Shown here: piece by piece, positions 11,567 through 18,513 of the stretch | Numbering within the stretch: the first letter of the stretch is position 1 | Layout of the letters: each line of letters starts with the position of its first letter | Position numbers and translations under genes: made by a program | The notes under the pieces: model-generated | The model's database searches: none | Seen by the model: only the letters and a program-made list of their open reading frames with translations | Told to the model about the DNA's origin: nothing | Assembly: GCA_022564515.1 (NCBI GenBank) | Contig: JADFLH010000005.1 | Span: forward strand, 1-44,984 | Length of the DNA stretch: 44,984 nucleotides | Direction of reading: 5' to 3' | DNA from: Nitrososphaerota archaeon | GTDB lineage: Archaea; Thermoproteota; Nitrososphaeria; Nitrososphaerales; Nitrosopumilaceae

Positions 11567-12715
11567 TTGACAGAATTTATGAAAATTACTATTTCGGCTA
11601 TCAAAGCAGATGTTGGTGGTATTGGTGGACATACTAAACCAAGCGATGGTTTATTGGATGCAGTTAGAAAAACAATCAAAAACAATAGAGATTTGTTAAT
11701 TGATCATTACATCGGTTATTGTGGTGATGACGTTCACATAATTATGACGCACACAAAGGGCGTTGACAACAAGGACATTCATCAATTGGCATGGACTGCA
11801 TTTGAGGAAGGTACCAAAGTAGCCAAACAAGAAGGATTGTATGGTGCTGGTCAGGATCTTCTAAAGGATTCGTTTTCAGGAAACATTAAGGGTATGGGGC
11901 CGGGCGTTGCCGAATTGGAATTTGAGGAACGGCCAAATGAGGCATTTACAGTTTTTGCAGCAGATAAAACAGAGCCTGGAGCTTTCAACTATCCATTTTA
12001 TCGAATGTTCATAGATGGGCTGAGTAATACTGGTTTGATTATTAACAAATCTCTTGCAGAAGGGGTAATTATCAACATTATGGATGTTGAAGAAGGAAAG
12101 ATAGCGGAGCTTACCTTATGGGAAGATAAACCAACCATCGAGGCAGCATTAATGTATCCAGGACGATACGTTATTGCTACCGTTAATACTAAAGATGGAG
12201 AACCAATTGTTTCTTCTTCTACAGACAGATTACATAACATTGCTGGAACCTATGTTGGCAAGGATGATCCTATTTGCATTGTAAGAACACAAAAAAAATT
12301 CCCCGCAACTGAAGAAGTCGGAAGTGTTTTTAACAATCCACATTATGTAGCTGGAAATACTAGAGGAAGTCATCATATGCCATTAATGCCAGTTAAATTA
12401 AATTCTGCGGCCACAATTGACTTTTGCATACCTATCGTTATTGCTCTTGTCTTTAGTGTTCATGATGGAAAACTGACAGGACCTTTTGATGGTTTCTCAA
12501 CAGCTGATTGGGACTATATCAGACAGATAGCCACTCAAAAGGCATTAGCAATGAGAAGTCAAGGATTTATTCATCCGGCTACACTTGTTCCATCAGAATT
12601 GGAGTATTCTGAAGGTTACAAGGCAAGGATGGAAAAACTTGAGAGCAAAATGAAACCACTAAAAGATGATAAATCATCGTTTCAGAGAAAAGAATCATAC
12701 GAAGATCCAGATTAG
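11567..12715 (+). CDS. fbp: Fructose-1,6-bisphosphate aldolase/phosphatase
   Basis: The 382-residue enzyme is the bifunctional archaeal FBPA/P, which condenses triose phosphates and dephosphorylates the product to fructose 6-phosphate, making gluconeogenesis unidirectional. Key features are IKADVGGIGGHTKPSD (12-27), CGDDVHIIMTHTKG with metal-binding Asp residues, the MGPGVAELEFEERPNEAF segment, and the Y229/K232 pair in TYVGKDD, which corresponds to the Schiff-base lysine and its tyrosine. The start is ambiguous: TTG 11567 lies 3 nt after the AAAGGAG motif, while ATG 11579 gives MKITISAIKAD, the usual family N-terminus. Confidence 0.96.
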   Translation: MTEFMKITISAIKADVGGIGGHTKPSDGLLDAVRKTIKNNRDLLIDHYIGYCGDDVHIIMTHTKGVDNKDIHQLAWTAFEEGTKVAKQEGLYGAGQDLLKDSFSGNIKGMGPGVAELEFEERPNEAFTVFAADKTEPGAFNYPFYRMFIDGLSNTGLIINKSLAEGVIINIMDVEEGKIAELTLWEDKPTIEAALMYPGRYVIATVNTKDGEPIVSSSTDRLHNIAGTYVGKDDPICIVRTQKKFPATEEVGSVFNNPHYVAGNTRGSHHMPLMPVKLNSAATIDFCIPIVIALVFSVHDGKLTGPFDGFSTADWDYIRQIATQKALAMRSQGFIHPATLVPSELEYSEGYKARMEKLESKMKPLKDDKSSFQRKESYEDPD

Positions 12716-16618: not shown

Positions 16619-18406
16619 TTGAATTTTTTATTGTTGTTAGATTTTCAAGGAAAGGTTGTTCTAATTACGGGGGGTGGGACTGGAATTGGTAATGCTATTG
16701 CACGAAAATTTGTGGAAAATGGAGCAAGTGTGATTATCCTTGGAAGAAGAAAGAACCCACTGGAAGAAGCTTCAAAATCACTTGAGGAGATAATTGCAAG
16801 AGTTCAAAGTAATGCCTTTGTAAAAATATTTTCTGGAGTAGATGTTAGTGATGAAAAGTCAGTTAATCAAATGTTTGATGCATTAAAGGAATCAAACACA
16901 AATGTTGATATCGTCATTAATAATGCAGGGGTTTCAGGACCTGTAACTTGTTTTGCAAATTCTTCTTTAGATGAATTTAAGAGTACTGTAGCCATCCACT
17001 TAACAGGTACTTTTTGGATTTCTGTTCAGGCTTTAAGAGTTATGAAAAAGGGTTCTAAAATAATTACAATTTCTACATTCTTTTCCGAAGAAAGACCGCT
17101 TGAGCAGCGTCCATACAGATTTAGAGATCCATATACTGCTTCTCAAGGAGCTAAAAATAGATTAGCTGAAGCAATGTCTTGGGAGCTAATAGATCGAGGT
17201 ATAATTTCTATTGCCACAAATCCAGGACCTGTTCACTCTGATAGAATTTACAAAACAGTTTACCCTAAAGCAGCTGCAGAATTTTTGAGAGTTAGTGGTT
17301 TTGAAGATCTAAGTCCAACTGAGGTAGAGTCAGTCAGCAAAGAAATTATTCCATTATTAGGCGAGGATGAAAGTGTAATTAAAGAAGGAATTTCAAAAGC
17401 CGCTGAGCATTTTACAAAAAGCAAAGACGTAGATGTTCAGAAGATTTCTGAAACCTTCTCAAATCTTCTATATAACATTAAAACAATTGCTGAAAAAATT
17501 CAGAAAAACACTTCTAAAATGATTGCAGACGAGCAATTTCTCACACAGTCTCAAGTTGCAAAAACTGTTCTTGAACTGTGTGATGATGAATTAGCAAAGA
17601 TCCTCAATGGAAAAGTCATTCCTGGAGACAGAGTATTTTATCCTGTTAAACCACATATTTCATCATCAACTCCTTCTGTTCATCAACCAGATTTTAGTTC
17701 AAAGACTGTAGTTTTTGCAATCAACGCCACTGATAAAGCCGATTCAGAACGTGCGGAATTTTTAGCACAGAATATTGAAAAAAATGGCGGTAAAGCAGTC
17801 TGCCTAATTTCAGACAGCTGTTCAAAAGAAATTCAGAACTCAATTAGTTCAAAATTTCACTCACATATAGTCAATCTAAAAAATCCTGAGGAGATTGATA
17901 GATGGCTTGAGTCAGCAAATAATATGGGTCAAATAGCTGCCATCATAAACATTACAGGTAAAGTTCCTCAATTTTCAAAACTTGTTGAATTGTCAAGAAA
18001 AGAGTGGGATGAGTTGGTCGACAAGTTCATCAACACTCCTGCCACAGTTATTCATCGTTCCTTAGACTGTTTTGTTCCCGGAGGTGGAAAAGATCCTAGA
18101 TTGTTCAAAGACAAAACTGGAATTATTATAACGATTGGGCCTGATATGCCATCAGGCAGAATTTCTGGTACTCAAAGAGCAATTGTTGAAGTATTTCGAG
18201 GAGCTTTGAGACCATTTACCACTACTGTTAATCAAGAATTAAGCGATGTTCTAAAATCAAAAGTGAGATCATTTTTGGTTCTGCCCGGAACAATTGATGG
18301 TAAAGAACCAGATAATGAAAAGATTGTTCAGGCTATAAACTATTTTGTGTCCGAGCACGCTCCATCTTCAACATCAGTTATATTCTGTGTTGATGAAGAA
18401 AGATAA
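16619..18406 (+). CDS. Tandem short-chain dehydrogenase protein, malonyl-CoA-reductase-like
   Basis: The 595-residue protein contains two SDR (Rossmann) domains. Domain one (about 10-345) keeps TGGGTGIG (17-24), NNAG (101-104) and ISTFFS (151-156). Its catalytic segment reads YTASQGAK: Tyr172 is present, but the usual YxxxK lysine is Gln176, with Lys179 nearby. The NPGPVHSDRIY stretch (201-211) follows, then a helical insert. Domain two (about 362-595) lacks a glycine motif and active site and is probably structural. This two-SDR layout, size and the NPGPV..DRIY and AREFLR-like features recall one half of the bifunctional malonyl-CoA reductase of Chloroflexus. In a 3HP/4HB-cycle archaeon it is a candidate for malonyl-CoA or malonate-semialdehyde reduction. 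The family call is firm, the substrate is inference. TTG start. Confidence 0.8.
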   Translation: MNFLLLLDFQGKVVLITGGGTGIGNAIARKFVENGASVIILGRRKNPLEEASKSLEEIIARVQSNAFVKIFSGVDVSDEKSVNQMFDALKESNTNVDIVINNAGVSGPVTCFANSSLDEFKSTVAIHLTGTFWISVQALRVMKKGSKIITISTFFSEERPLEQRPYRFRDPYTASQGAKNRLAEAMSWELIDRGIISIATNPGPVHSDRIYKTVYPKAAAEFLRVSGFEDLSPTEVESVSKEIIPLLGEDESVIKEGISKAAEHFTKSKDVDVQKISETFSNLLYNIKTIAEKIQKNTSKMIADEQFLTQSQVAKTVLELCDDELAKILNGKVIPGDRVFYPVKPHISSSTPSVHQPDFSSKTVVFAINATDKADSERAEFLAQNIEKNGGKAVCLISDSCSKEIQNSISSKFHSHIVNLKNPEEIDRWLESANNMGQIAAIINITGKVPQFSKLVELSRKEWDELVDKFINTPATVIHRSLDCFVPGGGKDPRLFKDKTGIIITIGPDMPSGRISGTQRAIVEVFRGALRPFTTTVNQELSDVLKSKVRSFLVLPGTIDGKEPDNEKIVQAINYFVSEHAPSSTSVIFCVDEER

Positions 18407-18408
18407 AC

Positions 18409-18513
18409 ATGAAGAAATTTTCTGAACTAAAAGTAGGAGATGAATTTTTTTCTACCTGTAGTATTTCGGAAAAAGAACTTGAAGCTAGAACATATTTTCA
18501 ATCGACTCTATGA
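18409..18513 (+). pseudogene. N-terminal fragment of a MaoC-like dehydratase gene
   Basis: Two bases after the SDR stop, an ATG opens a 34-residue frame, MKKFSELKVGDEFFSTCSIS, ending EKELEARTYFQSTL. The F-x-x-L-K-V-G-D-E-F opening and the following strand and helix are typical of the first residues of MaoC/hot-dog hydratases, which are about 140 residues or more. The frame stops inside the 3' end of the convergent TauE gene, and no continuation is visible. It looks like a truncated gene that was once co-transcribed with the SDR protein. A functional mini-protein cannot be excluded. Confidence 0.5.

Follow-up and report, generated by a model that had tools for sequence, protein, structure and literature searches.

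A protein of ammonia-oxidising archaea related to bacterial malonyl-CoA reductase but half its length, a candidate for a step of their CO2-fixation cycle that has no assigned gene

In the CO2-fixation cycle of the ammonia-oxidising archaea (AOA) one reduction step has no gene assigned to it, and the strongest candidate to date is probably a conserved two-domain enzyme of these organisms. The enzyme is a tandem-SDR protein encoded on the 44,984-nucleotide stretch of archaeal DNA analysed here (the window), and from its sequence and predicted structure we consider it fairly likely to act in the thaumarchaeal HP/HB cycle as a malonyl-CoA and/or succinyl-CoA reductase. We also lean, slightly less firmly, towards a fuller reading: that all AOA use it as the malonyl-CoA reductase that has long been missing, and perhaps as their succinyl-CoA reductase too, and that it is a half-length relative of the bifunctional malonyl-CoA reductase (MCR) of bacteria in which the Lys and a Gln of the catalytic helix have been exchanged. 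If that reading is true, the step is catalysed by related enzymes in Chloroflexota and AOA but by an unrelated one in Sulfolobales.

AOA count among Earth's most abundant autotrophs, and the cycle by which they fix CO2 has been called the most energy-efficient of the aerobic ones. With a gene that is universal in AOA and a definite prediction of its structure and mechanism, the malonyl-CoA reductase question becomes directly testable, and, should the prediction be true, the gene would supply a marker for the thaumarchaeal pathway. A compact single-function reductase is also of interest for 3-hydroxypropionate production, and the Lys-to-Gln exchange bears on the Tyr-Arg protonation mechanism proposed for MCR. 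In the N. maritimus genome model no gene is assigned to malonyl-CoA reductase, succinic semialdehyde reductase or acryloyl-CoA reductase, activities that are present in extracts (PMC6038301); a bioinformatics search in a 2020 metagenome paper gave no malonyl-CoA reductase (PMC6964070), and a 2026 marker-gene resource has none for the thaumarchaeal variant (PMC12894919). As far as the open-licence literature shows, then, the thaumarchaeal malonyl-CoA reductase gene is without a published assignment, in agreement with the initial annotation of this DNA, which had called the reductase less certain than other steps.

The gene and its protein

The open reading frame lies on the forward strand at 16619-18406, where a TTG start opens 595 codons that end at a stop at 18404-18406; residue numbers below are counted from the TTG at 16619. 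Its homologues have the N-terminus MLKFQ, which lines up with the TTG at 16634-16636, and the true start is therefore probably that codon, giving a protein of about 590 aa, so that the initial reading stands in its coordinates, its two SDR domains and its 595 codons but probably not in its start. With 112 full-length homologues and an invariant active site, this is a conserved protein and not a chance ORF. Several homologues are split or carry in-frame stops (L036, L045, L062, G124, G146, G230 and G249), and these are probably assembly errors.

All features of the protein are given here on the forward strand. Its first domain has an intact cofactor site, TGGGTGIG (residues 17-24, 16667-16690), and then the active-site segment S152-T153...Y166-x2-R169-x2-Y172-x3-Q176-x2-K179 (17072-17155), which we placed by homologue alignment and comparison with MCR. 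Downstream are the motif PGPVHSDR (residues 202-209, 17222-17245), aligned with MCR and contained in NPGPVHSDRIY (residues 201-211), and AEFLR (residues 220-224), so that TGGGTGIG, NPGPV..DRIY and EFLR were all found where the initial annotation had reported them. AlphaFold modelled the full protein with a mean pLDDT of 86.7 and a pTM of 0.88, as an SDR core into which a helical segment is inserted (about residues 208-310, 17246-17554; 104 residues from R209 to V313) and, after the core, a second SDR-like domain (about residues 355-595, 17681-18403); the active-site loop is of low confidence in this model. The second domain modelled alone has a predicted SDR fold (pLDDT 93), and a search of about residues 355-595 for TGxxxGxG found none, nor does the domain have a catalytic motif, much as it had been described initially. 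Significant Pfam matches of the protein were to SDR and other Rossmann families only, with no significant match to the semialdehyde dehydrogenase domains PF01118 and PF02774.

Relatedness to bacterial malonyl-CoA reductase

Sequence and model together indicate that the AOA protein is related to bifunctional MCR and corresponds to one of its tandem-SDR halves. That resemblance, which the initial annotation had put forward, was borne out by PDB profile, HMM-HMM, fold search, motif controls, domain tree and insertion lengths. A sequence search of the PDB with the single protein ranked two full-length bifunctional MCRs first, and with a 26-sequence profile both again led, at about 150 bits summed over two domains, although part of this lead is that sum, the best single-domain MCR match scoring 80 bits versus 87 bits for a glucose dehydrogenase. 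When the full AlphaFold model was compared with the PDB by Foldseek, ranks 1-25 were all MCR (E 4e-25 to 3e-19), whereas the next tandem SDR, 2et6, stood behind all 25 at E 1.7e-17 with a TMq of 0.54 versus about 0.7 for MCR, and single SDRs came at about 1e-13 or weaker; no unrelated double-SDR family gave a better match. HMM-HMM comparison with Chloroflexus MCR, whose sequence was confirmed against PDB chains, gave 2e-19 for the C-half and 6e-18 for the N-half, slightly favouring the former.

The motifs Y-x2-R-x2-Y and PGP-x4-R are common to the tandem-SDR protein and the two catalytic domains of MCR; neither was found in any of 21 control SDRs, a small set chosen by similarity to the query; the key residues of Y-x2-R-x2-Y and PGP[VI]xxxR are kept in 112/112 homologues. 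A maximum-likelihood domain tree, built on a small sample with 14 control SDRs for contrast, placed the AOA domain in a clade with SDR1 and SDR3 of MCR (support 98/97) but did not settle whether it is nearer the malonyl-CoA-reducing SDR3 or the semialdehyde-reducing SDR1. The insertion between Ser/Thr and Tyr, which in the AOA protein lies between T153 and Y172, is 19 residues long there versus 18 in the MCR C-half and is absent from the N-half, and the segment after PGP has 104 residues in the AOA protein, 155 in the C-half and 48 in the N-half, the helical insert standing where the C-half has its extra domain, so that in the aligned sequences this insertion and the helical insert both resemble those of the malonyl-CoA-reducing half. 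Searched by itself, the second domain matches generic SDRs, MCR not being among its best 50 matches, and an HMM comparison of this domain with SDR2 and SDR4 of MCR gave nothing significant; therefore it is the layout of the second domain, not its identity, that supports a kinship with MCR.

Compared with the MCR C-half (Chloroflexus 8hjw/8a30/8j29, Roseiflexus 8hi4/8hi5, Porphyrobacter 6k8s), the archaeal protein has the same tandem of an SDR and an inactive SDR, the same cofactor motif and overall fold, and likewise Y-x2-R-x2-Y, the Ser/Thr-Tyr insertion, PGPVxxxR and a helical insert; of the 556 columns aligned, 127 are identical. It differs in its shorter insert, in having Thr where the C-half has the catalytic Ser, and in having Gln for the Lys of YxxxK, with a Lys at +7 instead. 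Bifunctional MCR unites both activities in one protein of 1219-1229 aa with four SDR domains, whereas the AOA protein has 595 aa, two SDR domains and a single cofactor-binding domain. Because length, domain number and Lys all differ, it falls outside the bifunctional MCR family, but it probably works like the C-half. We rejected a peroxisomal multifunctional enzyme type 2 tandem, the (3R)-hydroxyacyl-CoA dehydrogenase 2et6, which also has two SDR domains per chain but, unlike the AOA protein, carries cofactor motifs in both and is a weaker fold match. A generic FabG or glucose dehydrogenase was likewise set aside: there were only superfamily matches in Pfam and NCBIfam, those in NCBIfam far below curated cut-offs, and the motifs differ.

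The active site and the exchange of Lys and Gln

At the YxxxK position the protein reads Y172-T-A-S-Q176, and the Gln is invariant in 112/112 full-length homologues, a point that the initial annotation, which took no account of the catalytic Lys, had missed. Counted from the Tyr, the alignment shows Lys at +4 and Gln at +7 in the MCR C-half but Gln at +4 and Lys at +7 in the AOA protein, and Y172-x6-K179 is likewise invariant among the 112, as are T153, Y166, R169, Y172, Q176, R209 and R224. Y731, R734, Y737 and R773 of Chloroflexus MCR align with Y166, R169, Y172 and R209, respectively, R773 being the equivalent of the CoA-binding R785 of Roseiflexus, while R224 is an Arg at a spacing similar to that of Roseiflexus Arg799, where the alignment is uncertain. 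As aligned, the replacement of Lys by Gln at 176 is the sole break in the catalytic residues of the C-half. In the Roseiflexus C-half, substrate contact and catalysis fall to Ser731, Tyr743, Arg746, Tyr749, Lys753, Arg785 and Arg799, the pair Tyr743-Arg746 has been proposed as proton donor to the CoA thiolate, and replacing Lys753 by Ala abolishes activity (PMC10470521). From Q176 to PGP there are 26 residues, a spacing that fits the classical Lys register as that of K179 does not, and it is therefore K179 that is shifted. The invariant R43-R44 downstream of TGGGTGIG suggests NADPH as the cofactor.

Distribution among archaea

The tandem-SDR protein was found in 184 of 250 genomes sampled from the class, all of them in four families in which 174 genomes carry AmoA, and neither it nor AmoA was found in the 62 sampled genomes of other families, some of which have 4-hydroxybutyryl-CoA dehydratase-type matches. 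Within the four families only four genomes are without the protein, all of them 86-93% complete, and among 300 genomes of the phylum we found no full-length match outside these families. The expected conservation in AOA thus held, confined to the AmoA-bearing families, and the sample did not reveal an absence from genomes with a complete cycle. AOA may share one ancestor, and the distribution therefore amounts to few independent events, so that co-occurrence with AmoA may reflect the common descent of AOA rather than function.

Two unusual frames came to light in the same genomes. In G044, a member of the Nitrosopumilaceae, an SDR match (G044:C1:576097-576678, reverse strand) falls in an open frame of 13,569 residues, which may be either a giant protein or an artefact, and in G132 an HpaB_N domain of the 4-hydroxybutyryl-CoA dehydratase type (G132:C1:943874-944677, reverse strand) falls in a frame of 1265 residues versus about 510 elsewhere, a possible fusion.

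Proposed function and its alternatives

The reaction that we infer would most likely be malonyl-CoA + NADPH -> malonate semialdehyde + CoA, step 2 of the 3-hydroxypropionate/4-hydroxybutyrate cycle, and the same enzyme would perhaps reduce succinyl-CoA at step 10. The first domain would bind NADPH at TGxGTGIG and R43/R44, and R169 and R209 would hold the CoA ester, aided by the helical insert and by the second domain. T153 and Y172 would polarise the thioester carbonyl for attack by hydride, Y166-R169 would protonate the leaving thiolate in the manner of Tyr743-Arg746 of Roseiflexus MCR, and the nicotinamide ribose would be held, in place of the usual Lys, either by Q176 or by K179, which lies a helix turn lower than that Lys would. 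A separate iron-type dehydrogenase would then reduce malonate semialdehyde, and one MCR half would therefore suffice. Work by Otte from 2015 is said to have characterised malonic semialdehyde reductase in N. maritimus, reportedly an iron-type dehydrogenase. Against an MCR function stand the Gln in place of the YxxxK Lys, when Ala at the equivalent Lys of Roseiflexus abolishes activity, a tree that is silent on which half is meant, a generic second domain, the low model confidence of the active-site loop, a co-occurrence with AmoA that common descent may explain, neighbours that include no known cycle genes, and unremarkable codon usage.

Could the protein have another role, or the step another enzyme? 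A role like that of the MCR N-half (8aew, 8hi6, 6k8v), in which malonate semialdehyde or succinate semialdehyde would be reduced to its hydroxy acid, seems to us unlikely. That half shares the tandem layout, a similar length, Y-x2-R-x2-Y and, as PGPIxxxR, the second motif; its SDR1, from which the tree leaves the AOA domain unseparated, likewise has Thr in place of the catalytic Ser. Yet in N. maritimus malonic semialdehyde reduction has reportedly been traced to another protein, as above, the N-half has intact YxxxK and lower profile scores, the Ser/Thr-Tyr insertion, helical insert and profile scores of the AOA protein are all C-half-like, and a classical alcohol dehydrogenase mechanism is less easily squared with the missing Lys, even if no gene is assigned to succinic semialdehyde reductase either (PMC6038301). 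A role for the protein outside the cycle, on another acyl-CoA or a ketone, we regard as distinctly improbable: SDR substrate ranges shift easily, the catalytic Lys is altered and known cycle genes are not among the neighbours, but the gene is kept even in streamlined AOA genomes of 0.8-1.2 Mb with a near-invariant active site, and it matches a gap in a core pathway. Least probable of all, we think, is an enoyl reductase acting as acryloyl-CoA reductase. FabI and InhA have the catalytic spacing Y-x6-K, as in the invariant Y172-x6-K179, but here the classical register falls on Q176 with K179 shifted, the cofactor motif TGxGTGIG is classical and not of the divergent FabI type, and the relationship is to MCR. 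The acryloyl-CoA reductase gene, too, is unassigned (PMC6038301), but for that step there are zinc-type MDRs in the minimal genome G046, candidates from their matches to an acryloyl-CoA reductase model, weak and far below cut-off; hydroxyisobutyrate-type dehydrogenases of G046 are candidates for the succinic semialdehyde step.

The remaining alternative gives the reaction to the single aspartate-semialdehyde dehydrogenase (ASD) of AOA and some other role to the SDR, and we hold it to be a shade less likely than the semialdehyde reductase. In its favour, the Sulfolobales malonyl-CoA/succinyl-CoA reductase (4dpk), which probably catalyses this reaction in the crenarchaeal form of the cycle and is unrelated to the tandem-SDR protein, belongs to the ASD family, and codon usage of the G046 ASD lies in the 95th-99th percentile, on a tiny reference set. 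However, ASD-family proteins number two per genome, one ASD and one ArgC/LysY-like, in AOA as in the non-AOA relatives checked, with a single exception among the latter, and the G046 ASD, the one copy examined, passes the ASD equivalog cut-off and scores 306 bits with Methanocaldococcus ASD versus 190 bits with Sulfolobales MCR; an AOA-restricted, invariant MCR relative would also be left unexplained. Aldehyde dehydrogenase (PF00171) was not found in 12 AOA genomes of four genera (G046, which is closed at 1,232,128 bases, G103, G124, G146, G153, G159, G167, G177, G212, G215, G228 and G233), all of which keep the MCR relative. With aldehyde dehydrogenase missing there and ASD copy number shared with non-AOA, we found no acyl-CoA reductase candidate other than the tandem SDR that is both universal in AOA and specific to them, although ASD may conceivably have a double role. 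A search for LuxC gave weak matches only, overlapping aldehyde dehydrogenase genes. Codon usage of the tandem-SDR gene is unremarkable; as a proxy for expression, codon adaptation drew on a tiny reference set and was unstable between versions, and we therefore did not count it in support. One G046 zinc-type MDR with a weak match to the acryloyl-CoA reductase model (L217:1340-2398, forward strand; G046:321340-322401) has top-percentile codon usage in that genome.

Gene neighbourhood

Genes flanking the tandem-SDR gene include FBPase, PhoU-like, tRNA endonuclease, TauE and the like, among them in the window a fructose-1,6-bisphosphatase family protein (11567-12715, forward strand, PF01950), and no known cycle genes were found among the neighbours. 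We did not draw a function from these flanks, which are uninformative except for a MaoC-like hot-dog partner, truncated here and often lost. Comparison with related loci identifies its remnant in the window (18409-18513, forward strand, 34 codons), where only about the first 26 codons of the partner survive; two further genomes of the genus show a similar truncation and in other families the partner is broken or was not found, so that it is evidently dispensable. In most Nitrosopumilaceae loci the partner abuts the SDR gene: at 85 of them a gene of about 150 residues lies directly 3' of it or overlaps it on the same strand, intact for example at L001:9787-10239. Its profile matches the MaoC-family structure 1q6w weakly (E 2.7e-4), and the partner may therefore bind acyl-CoA.
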